Below, in pieces: positions 1,877-53,825 of a stretch of DNA of 64,000 nt; position 1 is the first letter of the stretch; each line of letters opens with the position of its first letter. The DNA lies in contig OY757010.1 in assembly GCA_963580285.1 (NCBI GenBank), forward strand, positions 149,654,675-149,718,674, read 5' to 3'. This DNA is from Lucinisca nassula (lineage: Eukaryota; Mollusca; Bivalvia; Lucinida; Lucinidae). Position numbers and translations under genes: made by a program. The notes under the pieces are model-generated. The model saw only the letters and a list, made by a program, of their open reading frames with translations. It did no database searches and was not told the DNA's origin.

Positions 1877-2089
1877 TTAACTCTTATCATGCTGTTCACG
1901 ACAACCCCTATCTTTGGAAACAGTGTAGATCCAGATCAGATGGCTTCTGAAGAAGCCATCTGATCAGGATCTACACTGTATGACATTTAATAAATGAATT
2001 TTTAGGAATAAATTACATCAAGTCATCTGATCGGTTCAAAGTCAGAAATGGGTGTGGCTAAACTGAATATTCAGCAAGAGAAGGGTTAA
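1877..2089 (+). mobile_element. Family A MITE (copy A1), TTAA target
   Basis: A 213-bp element bounded by TTAA at 1877-1880 and 2086-2089, with inverted ends related to CCCTTATCTTGCTG. The centre is a long hairpin (about 1921-1979) with arms around GATCAGATGGCTTC. TTAA duplication plus CCC-starting ends fit a piggyBac-type non-autonomous element. That class call is inference; no transposase is present. Confidence 0.85.
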
Positions 2090-2430
2090 TTTAAAAATAC
2101 CAGTTTATATAATGCAACATTAATACACATGTACAAAATGTTTTTGTTAGTATTCTGGTTGTTTTCTTTTCATTTGTATACCTATCTATTTATCTTTCTC
2201 TCTTTCATGTATAATCACAGGTGATAATATAGTTTTCTGTTATTCCGAGACTAAAAAGTTAATGAAGTAAACATTTATTGTGGCTTCCATTGTGAAAACA
2301 TTTTGAATGAATACCCTGCAAACCCACAATTATTCTTTATAAAGTGGAATTTTCATTAAAACTAGATGGAGTTTAATTAAGCCTCAGTGTTATCAAGAGT
2401 TTTGTGGTCAGTGATTGTAAAATATGCAAT
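2088..2430. repeat. Direct duplication, copy 2
   Basis: Second copy of the unit at 1524-1868, diverged by substitutions and small gaps, immediately right of MITE A1. Confidence 0.85.
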
Positions 2431-2696
2431 CAAGCTGAAGTGATACCTAACATTATAAACTTATTGTAGGCAGGAAACCCTGGGAAACAGTGCACGCCCA
2501 GATCAGGGCCAGTACTATTTACTAATAGAATTTTCTTTAAAAAAAATAGAATTAAAACCAAAAAATAGGCCGACCACCCCTTATACAACAAATGGACTTG
2601 ACCAACATTTAACACATAATTATTCTTAACAGAGGTGATGCTTATATAACTATCTTTTTACTTATCGAAAACAGCTATATCTTTCAATGCCCGCTA

Positions 2697-2965
2697 TTAA
2701 CCCATTTGGTACCAGGAACCCCAAAACAGGAACTCTAGCAATCAGTGCAGGCCCATATCAGACGCCTCACAATGCTATATCTTTCAATGCCCACTATTAA
2801 CCCATTTGGTACCAGAAACCCCGAAACGGGTACTCTAGCAATCAGTGCAGGCCCAGATCAGCTGTCGCAGAATGCTACGCCTGATCAGGAGTTCATTTCA
2901 AAATTATGGGGTGTCAGGTTGTGTTTTTCTTCAAAATTCTGGGGTTTCTGGTACAAAATGGGTTG
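2697..2965 (+). mobile_element. Family B MITE (B1) with internal duplication
   Basis: Starts TTAACCCATTTGGTACC and ends GGTACAAAATGGGTTGA. The first ~100 bp, including the upstream flank 'ctatatctttcaatgcc', is repeated in tandem (2673-2772 and 2773-2872). Contains a degraded central hairpin. Confidence 0.8.
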
Positions 2966-3006
2966 AACTGTGGAACAAGTAGATAATAATTTGATTAAGC
3001 AAGCCC

Positions 3007-3305
3007 CGGCCCCCGCCAATTGGGGCTTGAAGAAATAGATGGGCTGCATGATGCTTCCAGGCAGAGCTGAAACCGACCTCCACATGAGTACTGGTAAACC
3101 CCTTAGAGGATCTGAGCCTGCCAAGGCAAAACGGTGCGAGTCCGCCCGTCCATGCTTATAAATCCTATTGGTTTCATTGGGCTGCAGGGCTTGAGATGTC
3201 AGTTCATCTCAATGTCGGGTGAACTCCCACAAAATTGGAAGCAACCTCTCCAAATGACCTTTACTGTGTTGACAGGGACGTTAAACCTCGAATTAAACAA
3301 AACAA
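3007..3305 (+). mobile_element. SINE S1
   Basis: Non-LTR-dependent short element of about 300 bp: GC-rich head 'ggcccccgcc..ttggggcttg', body with 'tgggctgcatgatgcttcc', tail ending in a GTTAAAC..AAACAAAACAAA run. Flanked by imperfect duplications ttaagcaagccc and tttagcaagccc. Reading frames across it are incidental. Confidence 0.85.
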
Positions 3306-3419
3306 ATTTAGCAAGCCCTGATAGCATTATGGTACACTATACCAGTCCCTGGGTCTTTATTTCTATAAATCTGTTGGAAATAAAGAAGTGGTGACATTGA
3401 TGAATAACCTGACAGTGCT

Positions 3420-3830
3420 AGAAGAGGGGGTTAAAAACAGCTCCTTGCCTTAAGCCAAAGAAACTTAAACATATGCATATACAAAAAAAATAACCTTATG
3501 TAATGCAAATTTATAAGTCCAGTCAACTGATATATGGGAGCAATTTATGAGAGAAGAGTTTGTCAAATGAAGAGACAAAGTTTTAAATGATAGGAAAGAT
3601 TATAATCATTGTCTGCCAAATGACACTACAGTTTCCCTCCTACTTTCCACCAAATTTATGGGGACACCCTATTGAGATCCTCTAATAGCCCCATATATCT
3701 GTCTCAGTCATATTCTGTCAAACAGTAAATCAAATTTTCAAAAACAATGACAGCTGCCTTAAAGTTTCAAAAGCAAGAATATGGGCTAGATTTGATGAAG
3801 CATTTCTGTACAGAACAGATCATTATTACC
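3420..3830. other. No recognised feature
   Basis: AT-rich sequence without a repeat, exon or structured element that I recognise. Confidence 0.5.
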
Positions 3831-3832
3831 CT

Positions 3833-4005
3833 GGTAAACAATGCAGACCCAGATCAGACGCCTCAATTCTGCGGCATCTGATCAGGGCCTACACGGTTTG
3901 CAAAAAGTTCTGCTATTTTCCAAATAAATTTTAAAGTTAACACAACCTGTCACCCCAAAATTTCGAAATGGACTCCTGCCATTTTTAGGAGGAAGGAGGG
4001 TTTCC
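3833..4005 (-). mobile_element. Family B MITE fragment (B2)
   Basis: Retains the hairpin (3838-3905), 'ttttccaaataaattttaaa' and 'gaaatggactcctgccat', but has lost the terminal TTAA ends. Confidence 0.7.
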
Positions 4006-4032
4006 CACTTAAGAAATTTTGTCCTCAGAGGA

Positions 4033-4120
4033 GTGAGTGAATGTTAGAGTTTTACGTCCCACCAACAGTTAAGGTCATATGGAGACGGGACCTCGGTTTA
4101 AAGACTCATCCGAAAGTCTG
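4033..4120 (-). mobile_element. SINE S3, 5'-truncated, with TSD
   Basis: Only the 3' 88 bp of S3 are present (GAGTGAGTGA tail, then 'ttttacgtcccaccaacag'). Flanked by ttgtcctcagagga (4019-4032) and ttgttctcagagga (4121-4134). 5' truncation with a target duplication is typical of LINE-driven insertion. Confidence 0.85.
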
Positions 4121-4231
4121 TTGTTCTCAGAGGAACAGCTAGTAGAGAAGATGAAAGAGAGGAACACAGGAGAAAGAAAAAAATGAATAAAATTGAAGAC
4201 ATTATGAAAACACAACTATAATGCATTGTAA

Positions 4232-4395
4232 ATTTTTACCATTTCAAAATTTAGGGGTATCAGGTTGTGTTTTCTTCAAAATTTATTTGAGAAATGGCCA
4301 ACTTTTTGCAAACAGTGTAGGCCCTGATCAGACGTTGCGTTCTGCGGCATCTGATCTGGGCCTGCACTGTTTGCCAAGGTACCCCTTTAGGGGCC
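4232..4395 (+). mobile_element. Family B MITE fragment (B3)
   Basis: Contains 'atttcaaaatttaggggta', the hairpin at 4307-4372 and the start of the right end, which dissolves into a C-run at about 4396. Confidence 0.7.
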
Positions 4396-4439
4396 CCCCC
4401 CCCTGGGTTAATTTTAATAGCACAAAGTACAAAAATTTA

Positions 4440-5325
4440 CCTGGCAATTAAAAAATACTGAACTTTTTTTGAAATACCTCTGTGTACAAACTTCTTTACA
4501 AATTTCACGAATGCATTGTCATGTACGAAATCTTTTGGACAGTTGAAAGAGTTGACCCCTAGAAGAAGACCCTCATTAAAATACAAATATCCTGTCAGTG
4601 GTCAATAGTGATGTGTTTGTTCAGAGAATGACAATGATGAATAGGCCTGTTTGTTCTTATTTGTCTAACAGATGCACAGCAATTTTTTGACCTGTGCATG
4701 TCTTCAACAGTTCATCTATTCTCATACATGTCCTGTCTACATTTAATTTGTATGACAGACATTCAAAACAGAGGCAGGTGGTATTCTGTTTTTCAGTAAT
4801 TTAAAGAGAAAATATATACAGGTCTTGACATCTGAAATTACCATGTGATTTTTTTTCCAATTTTTTCAGAGCAAAACATGTATTAAATGTTGTCAGCTAG
4901 TCATGGGTGGTGGTATACATGTGTCACCCAGGAGGTTTGGTTAGGGAACCAACTTCAACCCACAGGTCTTGGACACTACCCTCTTGAGCTTAATTCCCCA
5001 ACTTTGCCAAGCGAGTGTCTCATGCGAAGAGGCAGGGACCCCCATTTAGCACCCTATCCCAGGAGACACCAAGACCCAGAACCCTTGTTTGTGACAGGGA
5101 TAAATTTTCTATTACTGATATCCAAAAGTCAGATTTTTTTATATATATGTTTTTGGAGGAACAAATAAGAAGTTTTTTTCCCATAAATACACAATTAAAA
5201 TGAAAGAATACCCAATTTAAAAAAGTTGGGGAGTAACAAAACGCAAATAAAAATTCCAAGATCCCCATATCAAAAGACATGCTTGCATATAATTCATACA
5301 GATTTAAAATTATAAGTCGCGCAGT
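4440..5325. other. No recognised feature
   Basis: No repeat family or convincing exon seen. Frames around 4887-5280 on both strands have no domain I recognise. Confidence 0.45.
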
Positions 5326-5622
5326 ATGTTGGTTGGTTTGTTGGTTTGAGGTTTAACGTCCCGGTCAACACAGTATAGGTCATTTTGGAGACGTTGCTTC
5401 CAATTTTGTGGGACTAAATTACCCGACACTGAGATGAAATGACATCTCAAGCCCTGTCGCCCAATGTAACCAATAGGGTTTATAAGCAGGGACGGTCCAC
5501 CTCGCACCGTGGTTCCGCGACAGGCTTAGATCCTCTAAGTGGTTTACCAGTACTCCTGTGCGGCTGGTTTCAGCTCTGCGTGGAAGCATCATGCAGCCCA
5601 TATATTTCTTCAAGCCCCTCAG
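5326..5622 (-). mobile_element. SINE S1
   Basis: Reverse copy: (TTGG/TTGT)n tail at 5326-5345, body, then the head cut off at 'caagcccctcag'. A family E end ('ggcgtgttttcgtgatgc', about 5632-5649) abuts it. Confidence 0.85.
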
Positions 5623-8142: not shown

Positions 8143-8149
8143 GATTAAT

Positions 8150-8805: not shown

Positions 8806-9018
8806 TTAACCCTTTTCTTGCTGAATATTCGGTTAAGCCACACCCATTTCTGACTTTGAACCAATCAGATTTCTTCATGTAATTTATTCCTACAAATTCA
8901 TAAGCTGAATGTCAAACAGTGTAGATCCTGATCAGATGGCTTCTTCAGAAGCCATCTGATCTGGATCTACACTGTTTCCAAAGATATGGGTTGTCGTGAA
9001 CAGCATGATAAGAGTTAA
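8806..9018 (-). mobile_element. Family A MITE (A2)
   Basis: TTAA at both ends (8806-8809, 9015-9018), length 213. The hairpin carries CCTGATC on the left arm and the CCAGATC partner on the right, so it lies opposite to A1. Confidence 0.88.
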
Positions 9019-9041
9019 AGCCCTTTCAAGATTATAATATT

Positions 9042-9573
9042 TTTATACCAAATGGAATCTTTCTCCTTATATATGGCAGGAGTCCATTTAGTAATTTTGG
9101 GATGACAAGTTGTGATATCTTAAAATTTTATAAGGAAAATAGCTGAACATTTTGCAAATAGTGCAGGCCCCGATCAGATGCCGCATTCTGCTGCGTCAGA
9201 TCTGGACCTGCGCTGTTTGCCCGGGTATCTGTTTTGAGGTTTCCGGTTTCGTTTGTGTGTTTGATTTGAGGTTTAACGTCGCCGCCAACGCTGAAAAAGT
9301 CATTTTGGAGACGTTGCTTCCAATTTTGTGGGACTTTAACCCAACACTGAGATCAAATGACATCTCAAGCCCTGCCTCCCAATGAAACCAATAGGGTTTA
9401 TAAGCATGGACGGCAGACTCGCACAGCATTGCCTGGGCAGGCTTAGATCCTCTAAGCGGTTTACCTGAGTACTCGTGTGCGGGTCGGTTTAAGCTCTGCG
9501 TGGAAGCATCATGCAGAAATATATGTCTTCAAGCCCCGATGGGCTATGAAGTTTCTGGTAGAAAATGGGTTAA
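9042..9573 (+). mobile_element. Family B MITE (B4) split by SINE S1
   Basis: B ends 'ataccaaatggaatc' and 'ggtagaaaatgggttaa'. The hairpin is at 9157-9222. S1 separates the two halves of the phrase 'gttttgaggtttccggt'. Confidence 0.8.
9250..9535 (-). mobile_element. SINE S1 nested in B4
   Basis: Reverse S1. Flanks gaggtttccggt and gaagtttctggt are a slightly diverged TSD. Confidence 0.85.
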
Positions 9574-10316: not shown

Positions 10317-10595
10317 GGAATCTGCTGAAAGTTGATGTAACAGGTATTAAATACAGATCTACCTGCCATGCATATGTCATCAGGGTAGTGATAAGCATGC
10401 AGAAACTGGCTGACAGTCATTAATTATCATTACATGCTGAATCTTGACAGGCCTGGTGAAAATCTGGATGGAATATGGCTACTCTGGGCTCCTGCAGGGC
10501 TTATAATCTATGGAAAATTCAGACTATTTTGCTCAAATGCTATAATAGAAGCAACTGTTGCAATACCTATTAAAGTAACATTATAGCTTCCATAT
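10317..10595. other. No recognised feature
   Basis: Single-copy looking sequence without features that I can name. Confidence 0.4.
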
Positions 10596-10808
10596 TTAAC
10601 CCTTATCTTGCTGTTCACGACAACCCCTAACTTTGCAAACAGTGTAGATCCAGATCAGATGGCTTCTGAAGAAGCCATCTGATCAGGATCTACGCTGTTT
10701 GTCATTTAGTTTATAAATTTGTAGCAATAAATTACATCAAGTCATTTGATTGGTTGATAGACAGAAATGGGTGTGGCTTAAATGAATATTCAGCAAGAGA
10801 AGGGTTAA
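10596..10808 (+). mobile_element. Family A MITE (A3)
   Basis: TTAA 10596-10599 and 10805-10808, 213 bp, same orientation as A1, intact hairpin. Confidence 0.9.
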
Positions 10809-13256: not shown

Positions 13257-13671
13257 TGTTGGTACTGTAATCCATGAATGGCTATTATGGACACTGACAA
13301 ACAGAGAAGGCACAAGGTGCCACAGACTGTGCAGGCATAACTCCAGGTGTTCACTGTTACTGTTTGCAAAAGTTCAACCATTATTAAAATAAATTTCTAT
13401 ATAAATTCAACCGGACACCCCATAATTTTAATATGGACCTACTAGTGAGAAAGATGCTTTTCATCTCAACCCATAAAATGCCAATCAAGACAACAGACTG
13501 TGGTCTGCTTTGCGGCCTGCCGGTTACCTTAAAAGTAATTCTTTGCAAACAGTGTGGATCCAGATAAGACTGCTGCCTATATGCAAAAATATTTTTAAAA
13601 AGTTTGCGAAGAAATTCAGCAGACGACATAAGCAGACGACATTTTCAGATCATGATGTAGTTCTCGGTGTC

Positions 13672-13855
13672 TTAACCCTTATCTTGCTGTTCACGACAAC
13701 CTCTATCTTTGCAAACAGTGTAGATCCAGATCAGATGGCTTCTGAAGAAGCCATCTGATCAGGATCTACACTGTTTGACATTCAGTTTATGAATATGTAG
13801 AAATAAATTACTTCAAATAATCTCATTGGTTCAAAGTCCATAAGAGAAGGGTTAA
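13672..13855 (+). mobile_element. Family A MITE (A6)
   Basis: TTAA 13672-13675 and 13852-13855. About 30 bp shorter than the norm through loss near the right end. Confidence 0.88.
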
Positions 13856-13981
13856 GGGTTAAATGGGTATGTAAATGTATCTGATCACCCTCCTGTCCCA
13901 CTCCTCCCTAAAGAGTTTCAGAATAGAAAATAATCAGTATGCAAATGTGCTTGCCAATTGCTTTCATGGTGTTTTTTTTTT

Positions 13982-14065: not shown

Positions 14066-14457
14066 TAGGGCTGACACAAATAATCGTATAATTGATTTAA
14101 TCGATCGATAAATTCCACAAAATGATAATCATTTCTGATTTGCTTGTAATCGATTACTAGATAGGTACAATTTACTTCCCAAAGGTATGCCTAAAATAGC
14201 TGGATGAGTGGCAAACAGTGCAGACCCTGATGAGACGCAGGATGATGCGGCATCTCATCTGGGTATACAGTGTTTGCTCGAGCCTGTCTGTTCAAATATA
14301 CATATGGTAAAGAGCAACATATGATAAGAGTCAAGCTCAGACAGAAAGCTGGACAGGTAAAATAATGACAAAAACCTTAGCGATTACTAATCGTTTATCG
14401 ATCGCAATGACAGGACTGATAATCGATTACCCTTTCAGCTCCGATTAGCCAGCCCTA
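14066..14457 (+). mobile_element. Family D MITE (D1), hAT-like, 8-bp TSD
   Basis: 392 bp with ends TAGGGCTGACAC.. and ..AGCCAGCCCTA and exact TSD actactac (14058-14065, 14458-14465). AT-rich subterminal ATCGATTA repeats. The centre (14214-14277) is the shared hairpin, here in its GATGAG/CTCATC form. TSD length and TIR fit hAT (inference). Confidence 0.92.
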
Positions 14458-16862: not shown

Positions 16863-16875
16863 GAGCTATCAGAAG

Positions 16876-17267
16876 TAAAACTGACACGATTAATCGAAAA
16901 ATCGATTAATTGATCGATATGTTCCTCACAAATGATTATCATTATTGATTTGTTTGTAATCGATTATTTGATAAGTACAATTTCCTACAAAAAGCTGTGC
17001 TTAAAATAGCTGGATGAGTGGCAAACAGTGCAGACCATGATGAGACACCGCATTCTGCGGCGTCTCATCTGGGTCTACACTGTTTGCTCAGAGCTGTCTG
17101 TTCAAATATACATATGGTAAAGTACAACGTATGGTAAGAGTCATGCTCAGGCAGAAAGCCTAACAGGTAAAATTATAACAAAATCTTAAGTGATTACTAA
17201 TCGATTATCGATCATAATGGCAGGAATGATAATCGATTATCCTTTCAGCTCCGATTAGCCAGCCCTA
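16876..17267 (+). mobile_element. Family D MITE (D2), hAT-like, 8-bp TSD
   Basis: Again 392 bp. TSD atcagaag at 16868-16875 and 17268-17275. The left end has mutated to TAAAACTGACAC; the right end is AGCCAGCCCTA. Hairpin core at 17022-17089 in GATGAG/CTCATC form. Confidence 0.92.
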
Positions 17268-18660: not shown

Positions 18661-18721
18661 GAACTGGACAGGAATGGAATGGAATGGAATGATGTCACAG
18701 GATATATTATGTGTATTCTGA

Positions 18722-18805
18722 CCGGCAGGCCTTAGCAAACAGTGTAGACCCAGATGAGATGCCACAGAATGTGGCATCTCATCAGGGTCCTACACTGTTT
18801 GCCAT
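18722..18805. repeat. Stand-alone shared hairpin core
   Basis: 84-bp imperfect palindrome, 'agcaaacagtgtagaccc' to 'tacactgtttgcc', with no recognisable A, B or D ends around it. Keeps the CCAGAT/CCTGAT asymmetry. Confidence 0.85.
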
Positions 18806-18811
18806 ACATCT

Positions 18812-19112
18812 ATTTGTTTGTTTGATTTGAGGTTTAACGTCCCTGTCAACACTGTAAAGGTCATTTTGGAGACGTTGCTTCCAATTTTGTGGGACTTTTA
18901 CCCGACATTGAGATGAAATGACTTCTCAAGCCCTGTCGCCCAATGAAACCAATAGGGTTAATTAGCATGGACGGTCCGCCTCACACCGCGGTTCCAGGAC
19001 AGGCTTAGATCCTCTAAGCAGTTTACCAGTACTAGTGTGCGGGCTGGATTTAGCTCTGCGTGGAAGCATCATGCAGCCCATATATTTCTTCAAGCCCCCA
19101 TGGGCGGGGGCA
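18812..19112 (-). mobile_element. SINE S1 beside the core palindrome
   Basis: Reverse, full length. TSD tttgccatacatct (18798-18811) and tttgccatacagct (from 19113), i.e. it inserted at the edge of the hairpin. Confidence 0.88.
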
Positions 19113-19183
19113 TTTGCCATACAGCTAACAATTTTTAGACACAACATATGAGGTAGTGTATTGTACCTGTTCAAATTTTAGAA

Positions 19184-19471
19184 CTGACCCGGCCCCCGCC
19201 CATTGGGGCTTGAAGACATATATGGGCTGCATGATGCTTCCACGCAGAGCTGAAACCGACCCACACACAACTACTGATAAACCGCTTAAAGGATCTAAGC
19301 CTGCCCAGGCAAAGCGGTGCGAAGCCTGCCCAGGCAAAGCGGGACGGGCCGTCCATGCTTATAAACCCTATTGGTTTCATTGGGTGGCAGGGCTTGAGAA
19401 GTCATTTCATCTCAATGTCGGGTAAAAGTGTTGACGGGGACGTTAAACCTCAAATCAAACAAACAAACACA
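19184..19471 (+). mobile_element. SINE S1 with a small internal duplication
   Basis: Forward S1. TSD attttagaac at 19174-19183 and 19472-19481. The phrase 'gcctgcccaggcaaagcgg' occurs twice in a row. Confidence 0.88.
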
Positions 19472-19578: not shown

Positions 19579-19853
19579 TTAGCGCACAGATGCTTGGGGT
19601 CAGGTCTGACTAGCTTTCTAGCCTGACAGAACAGGCCTACTATCGATAAAACTTAGTTGAAGGCCTCAAAACAATGTTTTGAAAAAGGTCCCCCATCACT
19701 GATAGGCTCTGTATATTAGAGCCTATCAGTGATGGGGACCTTTTTTAAAACCTTGTTTTAAGGCCTTCAAACAAGTTTTGTCGATAGTAGGCCTGTTCTG
19801 TCGGGCTAGAAAGCTAATCAGACCTGACCCCAAGCATCTGTGGTGTAGCGCAC
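19579..19853. repeat. Long near-perfect inverted repeat (family T)
   Basis: Arms of about 133 bp (19579-19712 and 19721-19853) meet at 'ctctgtatattagag'. Arm ends are 'tagcgcacagatgcttgggg' and its complement. No transposase; it could be a foldback MITE or a recent inverted duplication. Confidence 0.85.
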
Positions 19854-21592: not shown

Positions 21593-22004
21593 ACGTAACA
21601 CTATTAACCCTTTTTGTACCAAATGGAATCTTCCACCATATATATAGCAGGGGTTCATTTCAAAATTTAGGGGTGTCAGGTTGTGTTTACTTCAAAATTT
21701 ATTAGGAAAAAGGCTGAGCTTTTTGCAAACAGTGTAGGCCCTGATCAGACGCCGCAAAATGCGGCGTCTGATCTGGGCCTGCACTGTTTGCCAGGCAACC
21801 CGTTTTGGGGGTTTCTGGTACTGAATGAGTTAATGGGGTCCAAAGCAGAAACTGTGTTACTTAAACAACCGTGATATATCCAAACAAATGGCCAATTCAG
21901 GTCATTTTCCTATTTATCTACACATTTTTTGGATCTATCTTGAAGCTGTGTTATATCCAAACTGTGTTATAATGAACTCAGTGTTATAACAAGGTTGTGG
22001 TGTA
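21593..22004 (-). mobile_element. Family C MITE (C3) carrying B5
   Basis: Reverse C element ('caaagcagaaactgtg' side) ending GGTTGTGGTGTA. B5 sits at the same position as B6 in C2. Confidence 0.75.
21604..21833 (-). mobile_element. Family B MITE (B5), intact
   Basis: TTAA 21604-21607 and 21830-21833. Ends TTAACCCTTTTTGTACC and GGTACTGAATGAGTTAA. Hairpin 21725-21791 in GATCAG/CTGATC form with GACGCC/GGCGTC. Confidence 0.9.
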
Positions 22005-23314: not shown

Positions 23315-24370
23315 ATGGTACGTTTGACGCAAGATCAACGTAATGTAGCGGTCCAAATGCTTCTACGTGGGATGTCTCAGGCTGTCATCGCCAGGAACTT
23401 CCAAGTGAGTAAATCGACGATAACTTGCTTGTACCAGCATCTACGTCAAACGGCTATGACAAATGACAGGCCCAGAAGTGGACGTCCACGCATCACGACA
23501 CGTCAACAGGACAGAAACATCCGTCTAACCCACCTTCCTAAATAAATATCGGTTCCGTACAGCCGTCGAGACGTCAAAGGTGACACCAGGAACGCACAAC
23601 AATCGAATAAGTGCAGATACTGTCAGGAATCGCCTTCGAAAGTTTGGCTAACGTCCTCGTTGTCCGTACGTTGGTATGCCATTAACACCACAAGGATGTC
23701 ATGTTAGAATGGCGTGGCTCACACAACATAGGCCAAACCTGTTTCCCCTTCGCAAGTGGCGTAACGTAATGTTTTCTGACGAGTCCAGGTACTTGTTGTA
23801 CAGAGCTGATGGCCGTCAATGTGTGTATAGGCGTGACGGAGAGTGTTATCGTGACAATTGTTTGGTTGAACGTGATCAATTTGGAGGCTGTGGGTTGATG
23901 GTGTGGGCTGGCATTTCTTATGGTCATAGAACCCTTCTGGTATTCATTGATGGATCTTTGACAGCTCAGCGTTACGTTGTCGTTTTACGACCGGTAGTTG
24001 TTCCATACATGTATGTACGACAGCACAACGTTACGTTTCAACAGGATAACGCTTGGGTGCATGTAGCAAGGCTCAGCCTGGTGTTTCTTCAGCAAAACAA
24101 CGTTGATGTGATGCACTGGCCTCCGTATAGTCCAGATCTCTCTCCTATAGAACATTTGTGGGACGTCTTGGATAGGCACATACGTAACCGCCCCCAGCCG
24201 CCAACAACGCGTCAAGCCTTGCGTCTCGTGCTCATACAGGAGTGGAATGCTATTCCCAGGCAGAGATCAATCGTTTAATTCTGTCCATGACCAGGCATGT
24301 GCGTGCAGGACTGAATGCAAATGGAGGGCATACTCGCTATTACCTAACTGCTTATGTTTTGAACTTGTGA
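23315..24370 (+). pseudogene. Tc1-family transposase, broken
   Basis: Transposase that would cut and paste the element at TA. The N-terminal 77 codons (23315-23545) form a paired-like helix-turn-helix with a MSQAVIARNFQVSKSTI stretch and a basic GRPR-type hook. A frameshift near 23540 moves reading to another frame, which meets a TAA at 23649-23651 and then stays open from 23676. That part holds the catalytic triad: D in FSDES (residue 35 of the 23676 frame), D in QQDNA and E in SPIEHLWD, with 34 residues between the last two (DD34E, Tc1 type; mariner would be D). A second frameshift near 24258 is needed to reach the natural C-terminus ending at 24370. Two frameshifts and one stop make it non-functional. 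Start chosen at the first ATG of the HTH frame, in good position behind the leader. Confidence 0.93.
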
Positions 24371-24820: not shown

Positions 24821-25275
24821 TACACCACAACTTCATTATAACATGGTTCTTTATAAGACGGTTTTGAATATAACACTGTTTCAAGATGGATCCCAAAAGT
24901 GTATAGATTATATAGAAAAATGACCATAAATGGTCATTTTTCTATACAATCTATACATTTTTGTTTGGATATAACAAGGTTGTTTTAACTAACATGGTTT
25001 CTGCTTTGGTCCCCATGAACCCATTTAGTACCGAAACCCCAAAACGGGTACCAGGGCAAACAGTGCAGGCCCAGATCAGATGCCGCAGAACGCGGTGTCT
25101 GATCAGGGCCTCCACTGCTTGCTTAAAGTTCAGTCATTTTCCAAACAAATTTTGAAGATAACACAGCCTGACACCCCCAAATTTTGAAATGGACTCCTGC
25201 TATATATTCATATAGGGAGGAAGATACCATGTGGTACAAAAAGGGTTAATAGTGTTATAAAGAGGTTGTGGTGTA
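24821..25275 (+). mobile_element. Family C MITE (C2) carrying B6
   Basis: Ends TACACCACAAC and GTTGTGGTGTA. AT hairpin 24903-24958 (arms around 'gaaaaatgaccataaatgg'). B6 interrupts it at the TTAA that is empty in C1. Confidence 0.85.
25016..25249 (+). mobile_element. Family B MITE (B6) in C2
   Basis: Left boundary TGAA (mutated TTAA), right TTAA 25246-25249. Ends 'cccatttagtaccg' and 'gtggtacaaaaaggg'. Hairpin 25055-25120. Confidence 0.88.
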
Positions 25276-26817: not shown

Positions 26818-27342
26818 TTAAACCCTTGTCCTGCTGAACCCGGATATGTCTTATCTTTCAAACAACGAAGATCCAGATCAGATGGCTTCTGACGAAGCCA
26901 TCTGATCAGGATCTACATTGTCATTCAGCTCATGAATTTGCTGCAATAATTTGCATCAAGTAATCTGATTGGTTGACAATCGGTAGGGGCAGTGGCATAT
27001 ATTTGTTTGTTTGATTTGAGGTTTAACGTCCCCGTCAACACTGTAAAGGTCATTTTGGAGACGTTGCTTCCAATTTTGTGGGACTTTTACCCGACATTGA
27101 GATGAAATGACATCTCAAGCCATGTCCCCCAATGAAACCAATAGGGTTTATTAGCATGGACAGTCCGCCTCGCACCGCGGTTCCTGGACAGGCTTAGATC
27201 CTCTAAGCGGTTTACCAGTACTAGTGTGCAGGCCGGATTCAGCTCTGCGTGGAAGCATCATGCAGCCCATATATTTCTTCAAGCCCCTATGGGCAGGGGC
27301 TAAACAGTGGCATATATAAATATTCAGCAGGTCAAGCGTTAA
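26818..27342 (+). mobile_element. Family A MITE (A8) split by S1
   Basis: TTAA near 26818 and at 27339-27342. The hairpin is intact (26861-26920). The S1 lies in the right half. Confidence 0.88.
27003..27304 (-). mobile_element. SINE S1 nested in A8
   Basis: Exact 13-bp TSD cagtggcatatat at 26990-27002 and 27305-27317. This fixes the full-length S1 at 302 bp. Confidence 0.95.
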
Positions 27343-29244: not shown

Positions 29245-29515
29245 CCGGCCTCGGTAGCTCAGTCGGATGCGCGTCTGACTGGTGATCAGAAGGACAAGGG
29301 TTCGATACCCGTCGGGGTCGGAAACATTCTTTCGTATAGATTGATCACGAAATCTTTTCTACGGTCATTCTCTCCCTTCCCCTGATTCAAGAAGGGCAGT
29401 TGCCAGTTTCTGAAGAAAGAATGTGCACTGTATAAACCTGCCCAGGAAAAGTGTGGATAGGTAAACTTACTGGCTCAAAAATGACCTAAATAGTGTCAAC
29501 TCCAATACAAACAAA
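29245..29515 (+). mobile_element. SINE S2
   Basis: Forward; the best tRNA-like head in the window ('gccggcctcggtagctcag', 'gggttcgatacccgtcgg'), body, tail 'tcaactccaatacaaacaa'. Confidence 0.9.
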
Positions 29516-32266: not shown

Positions 32267-32672
32267 TTAACCCCTTTTGTACCATATGGAATTAGAAGCC
32301 TCCGTGGTGCAGTGGTTACGCTACTCGCCTTGTAAACCAGGGATCGCAGGATCGATCCCGGGCTTCTCCAGACTTTCGGATGAGTCTTTAAACCGAGGTC
32401 CCGTCTCCGTATGACCTTAGCTGTTGGTGGGACGTAAAACTAAAACTCACCCATCACCATATGGAATCTTCCTCCTTTTATAATAGCAGGAGTCCATTTC
32501 AAAATTAAGGGGTGACAGGTTGTGTTTTCTTCAAAATTTATTTGGAAAATGACTGAACTTTTAGCAAACAGTGGTGGCCCTGATCAGTCACTGCATTCTG
32601 CGGCGTCTGATCTGGGCCTGCACTGTTTGCCAGGGTGCCCGTTTAGGGGTTTCTGGTAACTAAATGGGTCAA
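32267..32672 (-). mobile_element. Family B MITE (B7) split by S3
   Basis: TTAA 32267-32270, right end TCAA 32669-32672. S3 inserted 15 bp inside the left end. Confidence 0.88.
32293..32456 (+). mobile_element. SINE S3 nested in B7
   Basis: Exact TSD accatatggaat at 32281-32292 and 32457-32468. Intact head 'cctccgtggtgcagtggtta'. Confidence 0.95.
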
Positions 32673-33278: not shown

Positions 33279-33788
33279 TAGTGTTTCCCCCAGACTTGGA
33301 AAAGGGCAGCGTGCTGGTTCAGAAAAAGGGCACTTTTAACAGGTGGAAGTGTTCTAAAAGGGCACTTTTTTACCATCATGTTTCCAGAGAGCCTAAATAA
33401 AGGCTTAACCCTTGTCTTGCTGTTCACGACAACCCCTATCTCTGCTAACAGTGTACACTGTTTGACATACAGTTTATGGATTTGTAACAATAAATTACAT
33501 CAAATAATTTGATTGGTTGATAGACAGAAATGGGTGTGGCTTAAATGAATATTCAGCAAGATAAGGGTTAACATGCTTTAATTAATAACCAATATTTTAG
33601 AGCATACTGTAATCTCCTAAGATGACCAAAAGGCTTCTTTTATATACAGGAACTTGTTTTGACACTTATTCTCCAGAAAATGCTTTCACACCAACAAAGG
33701 GCAGCAGTGTGGGTGAGAGGGGCAGCAGGGTGGGTGAGAAGGGCAGCAGGGTGCAGCACCCTGCTATAACTCATTGGGGGAAACACTA
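33279..33788. mobile_element. hAT-like MITE with TAGTGTTTCCCCCA ends, carrying A12
   Basis: Ends TAGTGTTTCCCCCAGA and TTGGGGGAAACACTA, with repeated 'gggcagcagggtgggtgaga' near the right. The A12 MITE (33405-33571) is inside. TSD unclear. Confidence 0.75.
33405..33571 (+). mobile_element. Family A MITE (A12) that lost its hairpin
   Basis: TTAA 33405-33408 and 33568-33571. The whole hairpin between 'aacagtgta' and 'cactgtttg' is deleted, leaving the arm bases joined. Confidence 0.88.
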
Positions 33789-34605: not shown

Positions 34606-34995
34606 TAGGGCTGGCTAATCGGAGCTGAAAAGATAATCAATTATCAGTCATGTCATTGCAATCGATAATCGATTAGTAATCGCTAAGGTTTTTGTCATTA
34701 TTTTAACTCTCTGGCTTTCCGTCTGAGCATGACTCTTACCATATGTTTCACTTTACCATATGTATATTTGAACAGACAGGCTTGAGCAAACAGTGTAGAC
34801 CCAGATGAGATGCCGCATAATGCGGCGTCTCATCAGGGTCTGCACTGTTTGTCACTCATCAAGCTATTTTAGGCATAACTTTGGGTAGTAAATTGTACCT
34901 ATCGAGTAATCGATTAAAAGCAAATCAGATATGATAATCATTTTGTTGAATTTATTGATTGATTAATCGATTATACGATTAATCGTGTCAGCCTC
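34606..34995 (-). mobile_element. Family D MITE (D3)
   Basis: Reverse of D1/D2: TAGGGCTGGCTAATCGG at left, 'gattaatcgtgtcagcct' at right. The right-hand TSD is lost. Hairpin 34785-34852 in GATGAG/CTCATC form. Confidence 0.85.
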
Positions 34996-35586
34996 ACTGA
35001 GGTGCTTAGAACTGATGAGTACCCACAATGCAGTGAGGTGCTTCTAATGAGTACCCTCTGGGTATGTTTTTGTGCAGAAGTAAGAAAAATATCACTACTT
35101 TAGTGCCTTATCTGGACCGGCTGAGCCCCATGAGAAAAGGGTATCTATCTTATAGGTGTCTATGTGCAGTAAAGGATCAGGCAACTCTCCACATGAGCCC
35201 AGTCTTGTCCAAGTTGCAAAAGGCCTTACTGACTGCATACATATACAGAGCTTGACGTAACTTCATGCAAGAAGAAATGTACATGTATTTATGTCTATTT
35301 AGATGGCCACTGATGCCAATTTAATGGACATAAATCAGAGAATTGTTAAGGCCTTTTTCCATACTTTCTCAGGACATTTAATGTTTCAGTGAATGAAAAA
35401 GTGAAGGGAAATAGATCAAAGGGTTGGTCAAACTGGGGTCAGGGATATGGCTGGGTGGAAACCTGTCAGACCCCCCATCAGACCTTGGACGTTTATACTA
35501 TGAATTTGTTCAGGTATCTCAAGTATTAGTTTTATGTTGGCTGGGAGAAAATAATGAATAATAGCCTGGTTCAGAATGTGCCAGTG

Positions 35587-35674: not shown

Positions 35675-35822
35675 AAATATTTACACACACTTTCTTCATG
35701 TGACAATTGCGAGGTAGTGACCGAAGTACCGTAAAAAATCCCAAAAATTCTGACGCCTGGACGACTTGGTGTAATTCTCCTAAAATTTTAACAAATTGGT
35801 TTCATGATCCAGCAAGGAGTCC

Positions 35823-35905
35823 AAATGGCAAACAGTCCAGACCCTGATCAGAGTGCTCCTTTTGGAGCAGTCTGATCTGGGTTTGCACCGTTTCCTCAGG
35901 CCTAT
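35823..35905. repeat. Stand-alone shared hairpin core
   Basis: 'tggcaaacagtccagacc' to 'tgggtttgcaccgtttcc', with the CCTGAT/CCAGAT asymmetry. Left flank (35745-35822) resembles 7690-7780, so it may be the centre of another element family. Confidence 0.75.
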
Positions 35906-35968
35906 CTGTCCTAATACTTAGGATCATTAGGGTACTAGCCACTTTTTCAGTGGGTCTCTGTCTCAATA

Positions 35969-36487: not shown

Positions 36488-37056
36488 TGTTTTGTTCGAA
36501 TTGGAGTTTAACGGCCCCGCCAACACTATTTTAGGTCATTTTTGAGCCGGTCAGTTTACCTATCCACACTATTCCTGGGCAGGCTTATACGTAAGTGGTT
36601 ACTCCGTACAGTGCACAATCATTCATTACGCAAACACGCCTACACAAATACATTGCCACCTTTATCGCCGAAAAATGAAAATTTTATGATGAAAAATTGT
36701 GATATTTTTCTTATTTCTGCTCAAATTATAGAATGTGGGCACTCGTTAGAACCGCCTCATCGAGCGATGAGGCGGTTCTTACCAGTACCCACAATCTATA
36801 TTTTAGAGCAGAAATAAGAAAAATTAGGTATACCCCTGGAAACCCCAGTTTTACTATATAAAAGTGGGGTTCAAGGGGTCAAAATTATATAGGCGTGTTT
36901 TCGTGATGCTTTTGCCAGAAACTGACAACAGCCCTTCTTGAATCAGCTGAATGGAGAGAATGACCGTAGAAAAGATTTCATGATCAATCGCCACGTAAGA
37001 ATGTTGCTACCCCGGCAGGTATAGAACCCGCGTCCTCCTGATCCACCGAGGCCGGC
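36488..37056 (-). mobile_element. SINE S2 split by family E
   Basis: Reverse S2: tail near 36490, head at 37000-37056. E5 interrupts the phrase 'gtgcac..attctttcgccag'. Confidence 0.88.
36636..36909 (+). mobile_element. Family E palindromic MITE (E5), intact
   Basis: Ends 'ttacgcaaacacgcctac' and 'taggcgtgttttcgtgatgc'. Long inverted repeat around 'agaaccgcctcatcgagc'; flanking arms 'tttttcttatttctgctc' and its complement. Confidence 0.88.
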
Positions 37057-37299
37057 AAACTTAGTTGAAAGCATTTTCTACATCACTTACAGTACAGGCT
37101 GATTTGGATCTCCAGCCGTTGCAAAGGTTTTCAGACTTGCATATATTCTGCCGGAATTATTGATAATAAACATTGCTTTGTCAGGATTTTGTGCTATACA
37201 CACTGTAGACCGGCACAAGATTGTTTGTCTGAAATTAATGAAGCCCCTGAGTGCTAAAAACAGCCCAGCTATAAATAGCTCAAACCTGCCAGAAAATCG

Positions 37300-37384: not shown

Positions 37385-37727
37385 AATCAATTGAACATTT
37401 AGCAAACAGTGTTGGCCCCGATGAGATGCTGTGATCTGTGGCATCTGACCAGGGCCTGCACAGTGTTTAACCCTTGTTCTGCTGAGCCCGGATATGCCTT
37501 TTCTTTGAAACAATGTAGATCCAGATCAGATGGCTTCTGAAGAAGCCATCTGATCAGGATCTACATTGTTTGTCATTCAGATTGTGAATTTGTTGTAATA
37601 ATTTGCTACAGGTAATCTGATTGGTTGATAATCGGTAGTGGGTGTGGCATATATGAATATTCAGCAGGACAAGGGTTAACTTTGCCAGTATCCCATTTTT
37701 GGGTTTTCCAGAACAAAGTGGGTTAAC
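37385..37727 (+). mobile_element. Family B fragment carrying A15, then a second B left end
   Basis: B sequence 'gcaaacagtgttggcccc' to 'gggcctgcacagtg' resumes after A15 with 'tttgccagtatccc' and 'aaagtgggttaa'. A new truncated B begins at 37723. Confidence 0.75.
37467..37679 (+). mobile_element. Family A MITE (A15), intact
   Basis: TTAA 37467-37470 and 37676-37679, 213 bp. Confidence 0.9.
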
Positions 37728-40676: not shown

Positions 40677-40892
40677 CATCACGAATACACGCCTATATAA
40701 TTTTTACCCCGTTGAATCCCACTTTTATACAGTAAAACTCGGGTTTACAGGAGTAAACCTTATTTTTCTTATTTATGCTCTAAAATGTAGATTGTGGGTA
40801 CTCGTTAGAACTGCCTCGATGAGGCAGGTCTAACGAGCACCCACAATCTATATTTTGAGCAGAAATAAGAAAAATATCACAATTTTTATACC
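40677..40892 (-). mobile_element. Family E MITE (E6), right-truncated
   Basis: End 'catcacgaatacacgcctat', central palindrome 'actcgttagaactgcctcg' and complement, then replaced at about 40893 by 'atacccgctttttcgaag'. Confidence 0.8.
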
Positions 40893-49745: not shown

Positions 49746-49894
49746 TATAGGAGGTAAACCACTGACAATCACCCGTATGACCACAGAAAATGTGTCCTGA
49801 TCAGCCTCCATGAATTTCACGTGTCTGAAATGTACATCATATAAACAGTAAAATTTTGCTATTAAGACCAGCAAAAATTAAGACTAATTCTTCT

Positions 49895-50422
49895 TTAACC
49901 CTTGTCCTGCTGAGGCCCCCACCCATCGGGGCTTGAAGAAATATATGGGCTGCATGATGCTTCCCTGCAGAGCTGAATCCGACCCGCACACAAGTACTGG
50001 TAAACTGCTTAGAGAATCTAAGCCTGCCCAGGTAAAGCGGTGTGCACAAGTTAGACTGTCCATGCTTTTAAACCCTATTGGTTTCATTGGGCGACAGGGC
50101 TTGAGATGTCTTTTCATCTCAATGTCGGGTAAAAGTCCCACAAAATTGGAAGCGACGTCTCCAAAATGACCTTTACAGTGTTGACGGGGACGTTAAACCA
50201 CAAATCAAACAAACAATTGTCCTGCTGAACTCGGACATGTCTTATCTTTCAAACAATGAAGATCCAGATCAGATGGCGTCTGAAGAAGCCATCTGATCAG
50301 GATCTTCATTGTTTGTCATTCAGTTCATGAATTTATCGCAATAATTTGCATCAAGTAATCTGTTTGGTTGATAATTGGTAGTGGGTTTGGCATATATAAA
50401 TATTCAGCAGGTCAAGGGTTAA
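49895..50422 (+). mobile_element. Family A MITE (A17) nested in J3, itself split by S1
   Basis: TTAA 49895-49898 and 50419-50422. Intact hairpin (50252-50312). Confidence 0.9.
49914..50216 (+). mobile_element. SINE S1 nested in A17
   Basis: Exact 12-bp TSD ttgtcctgctga at 49902-49913 and 50217-50228. 303 bp, complete. Confidence 0.95.
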
Positions 50423-50431
50423 GCATGTCTA

Positions 50432-51409
50432 AAGGTGCATTATTGAGCTACCGGGTCTCAAATTTTTTTTTTCTGGTTTATATCTTCAATGCATACTCCT
50501 TTGTGTTGTGTACACTTTTGGAGCCAAATACAGCTTCAGAACTTTGTGAAAATGGTCGCTTTCATTCGTGTTTACCCTTCGCTCTGAACATGTGTTCAGA
50601 ATTTCTAGCAGGGCCCTGATTTGAAAAGAATATGGCATACATTGCCTTCTTGACGCTCATGGTCCGCTTTGCAATGCATGGTCTTTTGCAATACTTTGTT
50701 GTCCATATTTTGTTCTGAATCTTCGTTTTGGCTCAAAAAAGTGACTCCATGTCTCGTCACCTGTGATGACATTAGCGAAAGACCGTGCATTGTAATTTGG
50801 AAACTTTTTAAGCAGCTTCTTGGCGCACTGAACTCGTGTCTTTTTCTGCTCATCTGTCAACAGATGGGGAATCCATCTAGCACAGATATTTCTCATTTTC
50901 AAATCCCGTTTCAGAATTGTATGAGCTGCTCCTAATGAGATGCCAACCATACTAGCTATTTGCCTAGTGGTGTATCGTGCATCAGTAGCAACTTTTCGGC
51001 CGACGATCATGTGGTGCATCTTCTGTTGAGCCTAGCCCACAGCTGAATTTCTTGCACCAACGAAAAACTGTCGGAAAAGACATTTCATTATGCCCATAAA
51101 CCGAACATATTTCATTAAAAATGTCTTTGCATCGTATACCAAGAATACAACGATTCTTAATATAGGAGCGATTTCAACGGCGTACTCTGACCTTCTTCCA
51201 ACCATGTTTTGTATTAGTATACAAGAGTAGACAGTGTTTATCGAACGATATACATGGCTAAAGTCAACGGATTTTAACAGGTTTGGTATCAATGTATAGG
51301 TAAAATGTTTTTCTATGCTGTGATATTTATTTCCAGGTGATTTTCGCATTAGTGCATGAGAAAACGTTCTACTTGCATTCATATTTGAACAGTCCTCGTA
51401 GTGCACCTT
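50432..51409 (-). mobile_element. mariner element nested in J3, inactive
   Basis: 978 bp; ends AAGGTGCATTATGAG-type (left AAGGTGCATTATTGAG, right complement of AAGGTGCACTACGAG), TA on both sides (50430-50431, 51410-51411). Contains a broken transposase on the minus strand. Confidence 0.9.
50605..51130 (-). pseudogene. mariner transposase, broken
   Basis: Reading leftwards: an N-terminal piece in one frame around 51050-51120 (..MSFPTVFRWCKKFSCG, HTH region), a frameshift near 51025, then residues in the 50657-51019 frame with ARYTTRQIASMVGISLGAAH (second HTH), WIPHLLTDEQK and the first catalytic Asp in VITGDETWSHFFEPKRR. This matches mariner, mauritiana-like. A further shift near 50660 leads to AMYAIFFSNQGP, and no recognisable D34D motif follows, so two of the three catalytic acids are missing. 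The peptide beyond 51130 (to 51451) is not recognisable. Truncated and dead. Confidence 0.88.
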
Positions 51410-51535
51410 TAAAAGTTTCAGTTTTTCTTTCTTTGTGTTTTCTACACCCATTGTGGTGAACTAACAAGAGACCCATTTTGAACTGTCCCCAAGATGATCT
51501 TAAAATAGGAATTTTACTGTATGTGATAATTGCAG

Positions 51536-51635
51536 GTGATTCTACATCGACTGTCATGGCAGAAAGTCTGGACATTACCACCTCTCAGGGAAGACGTCAA
51601 GGTGAAGGCCATGTCTTGGAGAAGTGATGGCAAAG
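51536..51635 (+). CDS. ANAPC4: APC4, second coding exon
   Basis: Preceded by acceptor 'gataattgcag' and followed by donor gttggt (51636). The exon is 100 nt: 33 codons plus one base, beginning VILHRLSWQKVWTLPPL and ending AMSWRSDGK. This continues exon 1 (..NVQGE|VILHRL..) without gap and has the HRL-----VW and W-(R/P)DGK marks of blade 1-2 of the APC4 propeller. The single leftover G joins the next exon's first two bases. Phase agreement with both neighbours is the main evidence that this is a real, in-use exon although it sits only 15 bp from transposon J3. Confidence 0.9.
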
Positions 51636-51854
51636 GTTGGTTGGGATTTTGTCCAAAAAAAATAAATCCACCCATTTTGTATAAACTTTAATGAGCTTAA
51701 GTAAAAATAAATCCACAGAGTAATTTATGGTGAAACTTCAAATGGTACAAACACTGTTGGCTCATTTACAATGGCTGTTTTGAAGCTAAGGGCCAGTGGT
51801 TCAAAGCATCATTAGCTTAACAAGCTCCTTAGTGCACAGGCACTTGTGTTTCAT

Positions 51855-51928
51855 AGAGAAAAAAAATATCTACCCTCTACCTTTTCGGTAGAAGGTAGAT
51901 ATTTTTTTCTCTATGAAACAAGTGCCTG
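51855..51928. repeat. Hairpin palindrome in APC4 intron 2
   Basis: Arms 'tttcatagagaaaaaaaata' and complement around 'ctctaccttttcggtagaag'. Confidence 0.85.
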
Positions 51929-51986
51929 TGTGTTAGTGGTCATATTGTTAACTGTTCTATTAAGTACAATATCTAAAATTTGGGTA

Positions 51987-52055
51987 GTTTTGCTGAAAAA
52001 ATGTGAGCAGCTTTTGCATTTGCAAAAGCTGCTCACATTTTTTTTCAGCAAAAAT
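51987..52055. repeat. Second hairpin palindrome in APC4 intron 2
   Basis: Near-perfect: 'gctgaaaaaatgtgagcagc' + 'ttttgcatttgcaaaa' + complement. Confidence 0.88.
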
Positions 52056-52139
52056 ATTAGTATACTTCCCATGTGAAATGATCAAAGTTCTAATGAAATG
52101 TTAACTAGAGACATCGTTAGTTACAGAGTTCCAAAAACA

Positions 52140-52465
52140 CAAATATTTTGAGTCAATTATGGGAGAATTTTCTTATTTTTCTCCAAAATGTATACATGTA
52201 CATTGGTTTGTGTTTACACATTAGAATTGCCTTGTTGAGGAGATTCTAATGAGTAGCACAACATACCTTAATTTTTATAGGAAATTGAGTGAGTGAGTGA
52301 GTTTTAGTTTTACGTCCCACCAACAGCTAAGGTCATACGGAGACGGGACCTCGGTTTAAAGACTCATCCGAAAGTCTGTAGAAGCCCGTGATCGATCCTG
52401 CGATCCCTGGTTTACAAGGCGAGTAGCGTAACCACTGCACCACGGAGGCTTCTATAGGAAATTGA
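52140..52465 (-). mobile_element. Family E-type repeat split by S3
   Basis: 'ttttcttatttttctcc', 'acattagaattgccttgttg' and return arm 'gattctaatgagtagcac'. Confidence 0.7.
52288..52452 (-). mobile_element. SINE S3
   Basis: Reverse, full length. TSD around tataggaaattga on both sides. Head at 52390-52452. Confidence 0.92.
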
Positions 52466-52562
52466 AAAGAAATCCCTAAATTATCCGTGTATACCTTCTG
52501 ACCTGGCTATGAATAACCCTCAGTGGTTCAAACTACCCCTGTGTAGAATAAATTTATAATGT

Positions 52563-52839
52563 CATTATGAAAACACGCCTATACACATACATTGTAAATT
52601 TTACCTCCTAAAAAACGAAATATTTGGAGGAAAAATTGTGATATTTTTTCTTATTTCTGCGCCAAATATAGATTGTGGGTACTCGTTAGAACCGCCTTGC
52701 AAGGCGGTTCTAACGAGTACCAACAATCTATATTTTAGAGTAGAAATAAGAAAAATAAGACTTACCCCTTAAAACCCCAGTTACTATATGAAAGTTGGGT
52801 TCAAGGGGTTCAAAATTATATAGGCCTGTTTTCCTGATG
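52563..52839 (+). mobile_element. Family E MITE (E8), intact
   Basis: Ends 'cattatgaaaacacgcctat' and 'taggcctgttttcctgatg'. Perfect central arms 'agaaccgccttgcaaggcgg'. Confidence 0.9.
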
Positions 52840-52907
52840 CCATAAAAGCATTTGAGCTATTGAAGTTTGAACTTGTAGCTGAACATACATTTGTAACACC
52901 ACAAGCT

Positions 52908-53230
52908 TTGGGTTTGTTTGTTTGTTTGTATTGGAGTTTAACAACCCAGTCAACACTATTTAGGTCATTTTTGAGTCAGTCAGTTTACCTATCCACGCTT
53001 TTCCTGGGCTGGCTTATACATGTACGTAAACCGTTAACCAGTACAGTGCACTTTCGTTCGCCAGAAACTGACAACTGCCCTTCTTGAATCAGCGAAAGGG
53101 AGATAATGGCCCCAGAAAAGATTCATGACCAATCTCCACAAAAGAATGTTGCCAACCCCGTCAGGTATCAAACTCGTGTCCTCCTGGTCGCCAGTCAGAC
53201 GCGCACCCGACTGAGCAACTGAGGCCGGCA
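52908..53230 (-). mobile_element. SINE S2
   Basis: Reverse; tail (TTTG)n, head 'gactgagcaactgaggccgg'. About 120 bp of S1-like tail sequence (53237-53360) follows. Confidence 0.85.
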
Positions 53231-53484
53231 CTTCGGGTTTTGAGATGTCATTTCATCTCAGTGTCAGGTAGAAGTCCCACAAAATTTGAAGCATCATCTC
53301 CAAAATAACCTTAATAGTGTTGACGAGGATGTAAAACCGCAATTCAGATAAACAAATACGCTAAATCTGAACATAAAACCACTAGTTTTAAAATAGAGTG
53401 ATGAGAATTCAATAGAATACTAAGAATAAGGACACTTTAAACCATTTTGTACCGGAAAACCCAAAGCCTGTTATTGGCAAACAC

Positions 53485-53825
53485 AGGCCTCATATTTTTC
53501 AGGCATTTGCAGGATTTCAGGCTTTTAGAGCTTGATTTTTTTCTTGATTTCAGGCATTTAGTTTCTGATTTTTGTGTATATAGTCTGTTTAAAAAACTAT
53601 TTAACCCTTATTTCTGACTATAAGTCAACCAAATTACTTTATATTTTCATAAACTCCATTACAAACAGTGTAGATCCTGCTCAGATGGCTTCTTCAGAAG
53701 CCATCTGATCAGGATCTAAACTGTTTGCAAAGATAATGTAGTTGTATTTTATTCAGCAGGATAAGGGTTGAAGCTGCAAAATCGGGCCTTTCAGGCATGG
53801 AAAAGCGTGGTCAGTATGAGGCCTG
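53485..53825 (+). mobile_element. Family H element with embedded A18, inside a B remnant
   Basis: Ends CAGGCCTCATATTTTTC and GGTCAGTATGAGGCCTG. A18 53603-53769. Flanks 'gttattggcaaaca' and 'attaacagtgcaggtcc' are two parts of a B element. Confidence 0.78.

Follow-up and report, generated by a model that had tools for sequence, protein, structure and literature searches.

How can one short sequence come to occupy the middle of transposable elements whose ends differ? The question is raised by a 64-kb stretch of the genome of the bivalve Lucinisca nassula (contig OY757010.1), the whole of which (positions 1-64000) we call the window. A 67-base palindrome, here called the hairpin core, lies inside miniature inverted-repeat transposable elements (MITEs) that end in TTAA (families A and B), that are flanked by 8-bp target duplications of the hAT type (family D), or that, as judged by eye, end at TA (families H and E). 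A first-pass annotation had offered two readings, namely that a mobile or recombinogenic core has spread into other MITEs, or that elements built around the core have been mobilised by unrelated transposases. The place and orientation of the core are much alike across families that differ in their ends, and this points to a part for the hairpin itself in the multiplication of these elements.

The hairpin core is structured and abundant

A core profile was seeded with seven window cores and iterated over four search rounds, the last of which gave 79 matches on both strands that merge to 40 window loci, 29 of them strong (at least 40 bits); the top score in the reversed window was 4.9 bits. All six hairpins singled out in the first-pass annotation (1921-1979, 21725-21791, 14214-14277, 17022-17089, 18722-18805, and 35823-35905) are present. 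Matches in the window exist partly by construction, and the rest of the genome serves as the independent check. The genome comprises 696 contigs and 2,926,205,003 bases, in which the outer 13-mer GCAAACAGTGNAG has 175,469 forward and 174,437 reverse occurrences (349,906 in all), against 50 and 42 (92) for the same 13-mer read backwards. Seventeen random 10-kb stretches (of 20 positions fixed in advance, 3 do not exist) held 29 cores, 19 of them strong and distributed over 10 of the 17 stretches, with 0 in the reversed control, and extrapolation from this sample gives roughly 330,000 strong cores per genome. Strong cores are about four times as dense in the window (29 per 64 kb) as in the random stretches. 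Half cores are repeated in a row in two loci (L013, 1637-2127; L026, 3975-4477), as if cores had seeded satellite-like repeats.

Aligned over about 67 columns, the 29 strong window cores form a stem of 31 positions with a loop of 3-4 nt and an A.A mismatch, the left A of which is present in 27 of the 29 and replaced by T in the cores at 53661 and 37402. Five cores folded as single-stranded DNA gave energies of -21 to -37 kcal/mol (z -6.6 to -14.5), and 0 of 200 shuffles folded as well. The reversed-sequence controls and the shuffles, of folding as well as of covariation, rule out chance palindromes, and with them the possibility, which had been named as fatal to the idea of a common core, that the similarity is no better than that among shuffled palindromes.

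Families with different ends carry the core in a similar place

Among 102 distinct strong cores from the window and the fetched loci, a script that counts cores of at least 40 bits only assigns 37 to family A, 29 to B, 16 to D, and 11 to H and leaves 9 over; since some of the loci were fetched specifically for D or the E/H junction, these proportions are not genomic. Both A and B have consensus termini that start TTAACCC and end GGGTTAA, and a simple pattern search found TTAA at both ends of 20 of the 37 A loci and 12 of the 29 B loci. The left arm of A begins TTAACCCTTATC and is 39-41 bp long in 20 of the 24 copies in which TTAA was found, and its right arm measures 106-107 in 18 of 27 copies. 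For B, whose left arm begins TTAACCCATTTAGTACC, the commonest lengths are 41 on the left (8 of 16 measured copies) and 121 on the right (6 of 14). The H termini, CCGTAATGATCC and GGATTTTTACGG, were placed at TA by eye, and TA was seen in this way at both ends of some of the 11 H copies, not all, in a comparison that took in one E copy. The consensus arms of H are 39 on the left, TA included, and 114 on the right, and 3 of its 11 aligned rows (L047, L050, L056) have a departing arm; E is represented by L049 and, in shorter form, by L023 and the sequence left of the core at 18735. The termini of A and B, together with the target duplications of D described below, bear out the earlier placement of the core within two TTAA families and one hAT-like family with 8-bp duplications.

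The orientation of the core and its A.A mismatch are common to A, B, and H, and the modal left arm is 39-41 bp; three such equal left shares have a chance of 0.004, a value computed after the data had been seen. Likeness between the right arms, taken at greater length, is not detectable for A and B (p = 0.77), A and H (0.06), or B and H (0.46), and the same core is found in flank families that share no detectable flank homology. H and E are alike in their right arms (p = 0.0005, the floor of 2000 shuffles, with one E copy) and in their left arms (p = 0.016). As to whether A, B, and D are one family that diverged, a first core-anchored consensus test over 15 pairs gave 0.046 for A-B, 0.053 for A-D, and 0.007 for B-D, and when profiles were scored against actual positions in the window, comparisons of D with A or B came out at 0.02-0.08 and those of A with B at 0.32 and 1.0, that of A left with B right also reaching 0.024. 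With the number of pairs corrected for, flank homology among A, B, and D is not statistically supported, and we regard it as unproven beyond H-E. The earlier statement that the flanks do not resemble each other is upheld by the right arms of A, B, and H; it goes too far in view of the common layout and orientation, the kinship of H with E, and the inside of D, which is a fragment of E.

Core and flanks are mostly inherited together

The nearest relative of a core belongs to the same flank family in 92 of 93 family-assigned cores, and mean core distances are 0.07-0.14 within families and 0.19-0.29 between A, B, D, and H. The sole exception, the core at 37402, is labelled A in the distance and pairing tests because an A element adjoins it, and its core reads as B-like. 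This concordance and the gap in distances imply that, from the start of each family, core and flanks have for the most part been passed on jointly, and the nearest-relative test over the 93 cores gave no sign of the core moving by itself.

Two cores had been thought to stand alone, and neither does. The one at 35823-35905 aligns on both sides with other H copies. At 18722-18805 the left arm is E-like, and another repeat, which also interrupts other window elements, cuts in some 10 bp to the right of the core. Bare cores are rejected for these two positions; five cores without recognised arms remain and are weighed below. The other four leftover cores were read by eye as one E-like (18735), one H-like (L034 2443), and two with a B-like left arm and another right arm (L034 2047, L050 2852). 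With both proposed bare cores provided with arms, nearly all cores following their flank family, and the core of D seemingly having come inside a larger element, the idea of a core that is itself mobile or recombinogenic is not supported. A dispersed repeat with TTTGTTTGATTTGAGGTTTAACGTCC (or its reverse) interrupts or adjoins core elements at about 9247-9280, 18812-18880, 27002-27040, and 50190-50219 and in L021 near 4315.

A search for A or B copies lacking the core, over the window and the 17 random stretches, a small sample, yielded no clean one. Three of the 18 A right-arm matches in the window have no adjoining scored core: the match at 33466 is part of the element at 33404-33571 and keeps a 20-bp palindrome remnant, that at 27286 is cut off by an inserted repeat, and that at 37286 is a fragment. 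The same holds for 5 of 14 B right-arm matches, among which 13367 is preceded by a degenerate half core, 22090 and 36329 are fragments, 44710 is cut off by an inserted repeat, and 15266 (18.9 bits) has no core that we could see. In the random stretches, arm matches lie at most 15 bp from a core in 7 of 9 cases for the A left arm, 9 of 10 for the A right arm, 7 of 8 for the B left arm, and 8 of 9 for the B right arm, and one B left end (L017) breaks off within the start of the core.

Family D as a composite hAT-type element

Elements of family D are about 390 bp long, and the measured rows have the termini TAGGGCTG and CAGCC(C/T)TA. An end was not found in 5 of the 15 D rows (two of these 5 being the same element); in the 10 measured rows, the 8-bp duplication is exact in 7, has one mismatch in 2, and is absent in 1. 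D combines the 8-bp target duplication and short terminal inverted repeats by which hAT-type elements are recognised. Its left end gave 1,706 first-look candidates, of which 40 were scored and 12 fetched, and all 12 fetched loci held the core, one of them broken by a deletion and one being the window copy.

Inside these termini, the inner arms of D match the left arm of E and the first part of its right arm. The left inner arm ends GAACAGACAGGCYTGA and the right inner arm starts CACTCATCCA, after which E goes on and D switches sequence to the hAT-type terminus. The junction of the E/H left arm with the core occurs 6,495 + 6,466 times genome-wide and the D left end 3,166 + 3,117 times, with 0 for the control in each case. 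Among 100 such junctions and 40 D left ends from the initial 27.3 Mb of contig 1, 80 of the junctions lack an exact D left end at its expected spacing, and 20 of the left ends are accompanied by the exact junction. D thus seems, from these matches, to be a composite in which a right-truncated E, a relative of H, lies inside a hAT-type MITE, the core having been obtained within the larger element. Because the hAT ends lie outside, it would be E that entered the hAT element and not the reverse.

Pairing appears conserved between families

In the 29 aligned window cores, 91.3% of stem cells pair, against 29-39% for slid partners; cells changed on both sides number 74 against 30.6 in shuffles, the covariation score is 0.235 against 0.118, and pairs with two-sided change are in moderate excess (11 against 8.7, a count reached in 30 of 500 shuffles). 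Compared with one another, the family consensuses of A, B, D, and H show compensatory, two-sided Watson-Crick differences at 8 of the 31 stem positions and a one-sided difference at 1, and all four have the A.A mismatch at stem position 17. Pairing within families was scored for cores of 60-72 nt only (31 of 37 A, 27 of 29 B, and all D and H), where 215 cells are changed on one side, 27 on both sides with Watson-Crick pairing kept, and 7 on both sides in other ways. Twenty of the 27 fall at three positions common to several copies, and against the per-site expectation two-sided changes are in excess in A (25 against 9.4). On the whole, pairing seems to be maintained in multiplying lineages and lost among the copies left behind.

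Core relatives in other collections

Three protein searches of contigs in the European Nucleotide Archive (ENA) listed 224 matches (the best 120 of 380, plus 27 and 77). Among the matches listed, the core is surrounded by A-, B-, and D/E-type arms and, by eye, by two further types; matches P0121-P0140 have D/E arms around the core, and P0130, P0131, and P0137 continue like the E copy L049 when translated by hand. The flank labels of translated copies are regular expressions written after the sequences had been read, with B as the default on the right side. Arm pairs in the 141 matched cores of translated copies are Q...D in 112, E...H in 27, and mixed in 2, for which a Fisher value would not be fair because the queries were of both kinds and the copies are not independent. 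Pattern matches in viral contigs (5 stretches and 1) and in prokaryote genomes (1) proved on reading not to be hairpins. The open-access literature, as far as its titles and abstract openings could be searched, yielded no description of the core; Repbase lay outside this scope, and an entry may exist there. Core strings are present in 8 open-access papers, which their titles and abstract openings mark as unrelated.

Elements and other features of the window

Core elements of the window, with positions in the 64-kb stretch
Element	Position	Strand	Core	Remarks
Family A	13671..13885	+	13711-13777	best-scoring window core; right arm fits profile only partly (1-91)
Family A	1876..2089	+	1916-1982 (profile match)	core first annotated at 1921-1979
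Family A	10595..10808	+	10635-10702	left arm, core, right arm
Family A	8806..9019	-	8913-8979	
Family A	33404..33571	+		both arms; hairpin reduced to inner-deleted palindrome of ~20 bp
Family B	21605..21833	-	21725-21791	
Family B	25016..25248	+	25056-25122	
Family B	32443..32672	-	32564-32630	
Family D	14066..14457	-	14211-14277	hAT-type MITE of 392 bp; 8-bp duplication GTAGTAGT; apparent truncated E-like element inside
Family D	16866..17267	-	17021-17087	ends approximate
Family D	34606..34997	+	34786-34852	ends approximate
Family H	35722..35934	-	35828-35895	ends CCGTAATGATCC / GGATTTTTACGG at TA by eye; ends approximate
E-like	18695..18812	+	18735-18802	left arm and core; right arm cut by dispersed repeat; ends approximate
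B-like core	37402..37468	-		GGCCC stem; short B-like right flank by eye; directly beside A element

The window also holds a second palindromic repeat near AAATATAGATTGTGGGTACTCGTTAGAACCGCC, with three copies listed (36723-36804, 40782-40856, and 52664-52735), and two long inverted repeats at 18978-19325 (arms of 134 nt) and 19585-19842 (arms of 109 nt). A transfer RNA (tRNA) match above the Rfam gathering score lies at 29248-29320 (+), and an open reading frame at 23676-24278 (+) matches the DDE_3 endonuclease (E = 5e-15).

Possible origins of a shared core

With a confidence just short of even, we favour an explanation in which the core does not move independently. It would be an ancient hairpin domain under structural constraint, belonging to nonautonomous DNA elements, carried by several end types, and captured at least once. 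In every family (A, B, H with E, and probably others), core and arms would have descended as a unit, the core having a single orientation and lying some 40 bp from the left end and slightly more than 100 bp from the right. The ends and arms would later have diverged or been replaced, so that different putative transposases act today, of TTAA type on A and B and of TA type on H and E. At least once, a right-truncated E-like element would have been captured inside the hAT-type MITE that became D, and since been multiplied by the hAT ends. The hairpin may extrude near the left end during mobilisation or amplification, and since pairing is apparently kept in multiplying lineages and has decayed in copies, it most likely acts in cis, as DNA. 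The earlier suggestion that unrelated transposases mobilise elements built around the core agrees with the ends (TTAA, 8-bp hAT-type, and TA by eye), the transposases themselves being putative. A more far-reaching proposal, which we consider unlikely if still a serious candidate, is that the core is a portable cis-acting DNA module that would raise mobility whatever transposase acts; pairing would then be selected in source copies, with the core some four helical turns from the left end, and TTAA, TA, and hAT carriers would out-multiply non-carriers.

Several observations weigh against an inherited hairpin domain. Since the arms of A and B show no sequence similarity, position, orientation, and the mismatch are all that speaks for common descent of the layout; the layout statistic was chosen post hoc, the arm lengths of B are scattered, and the TA ends of H and E are a judgement by eye. 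The covariation signal shows no excess of further pair types (25 against 25.0 in shuffles), and two-sided changes within families do not exceed the per-site expectation in B (8 against 7.3), D (0 against 0.7), or H (1 against 1.7). Arm-to-arm correction in source copies could also keep the pairing. The other 20 of the 40 D left ends are without the exact junction and may be mutated or core-less (one of them has the outer 13-mer 180 bp onward), and five leftover cores have no recognised arms (L008 1501, L021 4216, L042 2685, L042 2920, and L048 943).

If the families do not descend from one layout, then separately born MITEs may each have acquired the hairpin long ago, through gap repair or nested insertion, and the equal layout would be coincidence or functional convergence. 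D points to capture, the arms of A, B, and H are not detectably alike, and the nine leftover cores include, by eye, further flank types, but the common orientation, the A.A mismatch, and the near-equal modal left arm in A, B, and H are not expected from independent events, and we find this history rather doubtful. The symmetry of the stem could also have arisen free of selection, template switching during replication correcting one arm from the other in a functionless core shared by descent only. Single-copy two-sided changes, 7 of the 27, would suit such a process, three of them attributed to the misplaced core 37402, which leaves one in A, two in B, and one in H. However, one-sided changes within families far outnumber two-sided ones, and the A.A mismatch, an obvious target of correction, is kept in all four consensuses; correction of arms copy by copy has little support from the within-family changes, and we think a selection-free origin improbable.

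We regard as more improbable again a role at the level of RNA, in which transcribed cores would give hairpin RNAs that are diced or bound, silencing or protecting the elements in the manner of Made1-derived mir-548. The size of the core and its DNA fold would suit a small precursor, and Made1/mir-548 offers a precedent (PMC1784062, in excerpt), but the loop is merely 3-4 nt and an Rfam search of the window at gathering thresholds returns one tRNA only, an undescribed RNA still being possible. The least probable account is that of a core itself mobile or recombinogenic that has colonised other MITEs, as first proposed. Many flank types do carry the core, and the five leftover cores lack recognised arms, but no bare core with a target duplication is seen, the two put forward are an H copy and an E-like one, and core sequence follows flank family.

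Known counterparts and what the core may mean

MITEs of the piggyBac type that target TTAA are recognised by features that include CCC...GGG termini. A and B resemble them in both TTAA ends and CCC...GGG termini and differ in that the hairpin core is shared with TA and hAT types and in that their cognate transposase is putative. TTAA is stated as the piggyBac-type target in the available part of PMC9587614, which also describes KolobokP, a group abundant in bivalves with a TTAA target and a composite-like architecture, and gives the Kolobok termini as 5'-RR...YY-3'. As portrayed there, KolobokP is like A and B in target and in composite-like architecture, but A and B start with CCC and do not have the Kolobok termini. 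A further difference is that no long direct terminal repeats were seen in the elements here.

Families of short interspersed nuclear elements (SINEs) with unlike heads and tails can have one conserved domain in common. These highly conserved domains, named CORE, V, and Deu (PMC6887750, in part), have, as with the core described here, a conserved centre, variable ends, and a function that is open. SINEs are retroelements, whereas the hairpin core is carried by DNA elements that have inverted ends and target duplications. A closer likeness is found in MER6/MER6A, which the same partial source gives as a Tc1/mariner MITE carrying the V highly conserved SINE domain, that is, a conserved internal domain nested into an unrelated DNA element and multiplied by its ends (PMC6887750). 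D looks likewise, but its donor would be a hairpin-bearing DNA element, its domain is a near-perfect covarying palindrome, and several end types are involved. By analogy, then, the core would work like a SINE highly conserved domain and D like MER6, without membership of those families. Made1 is, as a whole, a palindrome. With mir-548, this mariner MITE is an example of a MITE able to form a small hairpin, as the carriers of the core are, and in the part of that source available sharing between families is not a feature of it (PMC1784062).

The pattern of a conserved centre between variable ends is familiar from SINEs, in which its function is still open. A counterpart among DNA elements, numbering hundreds of thousands of copies, with compensation between families and a preferred place near one end, would allow function to be assayed directly, and a role for the hairpin would account for the likeness of very different MITEs in their middle parts in such genomes.

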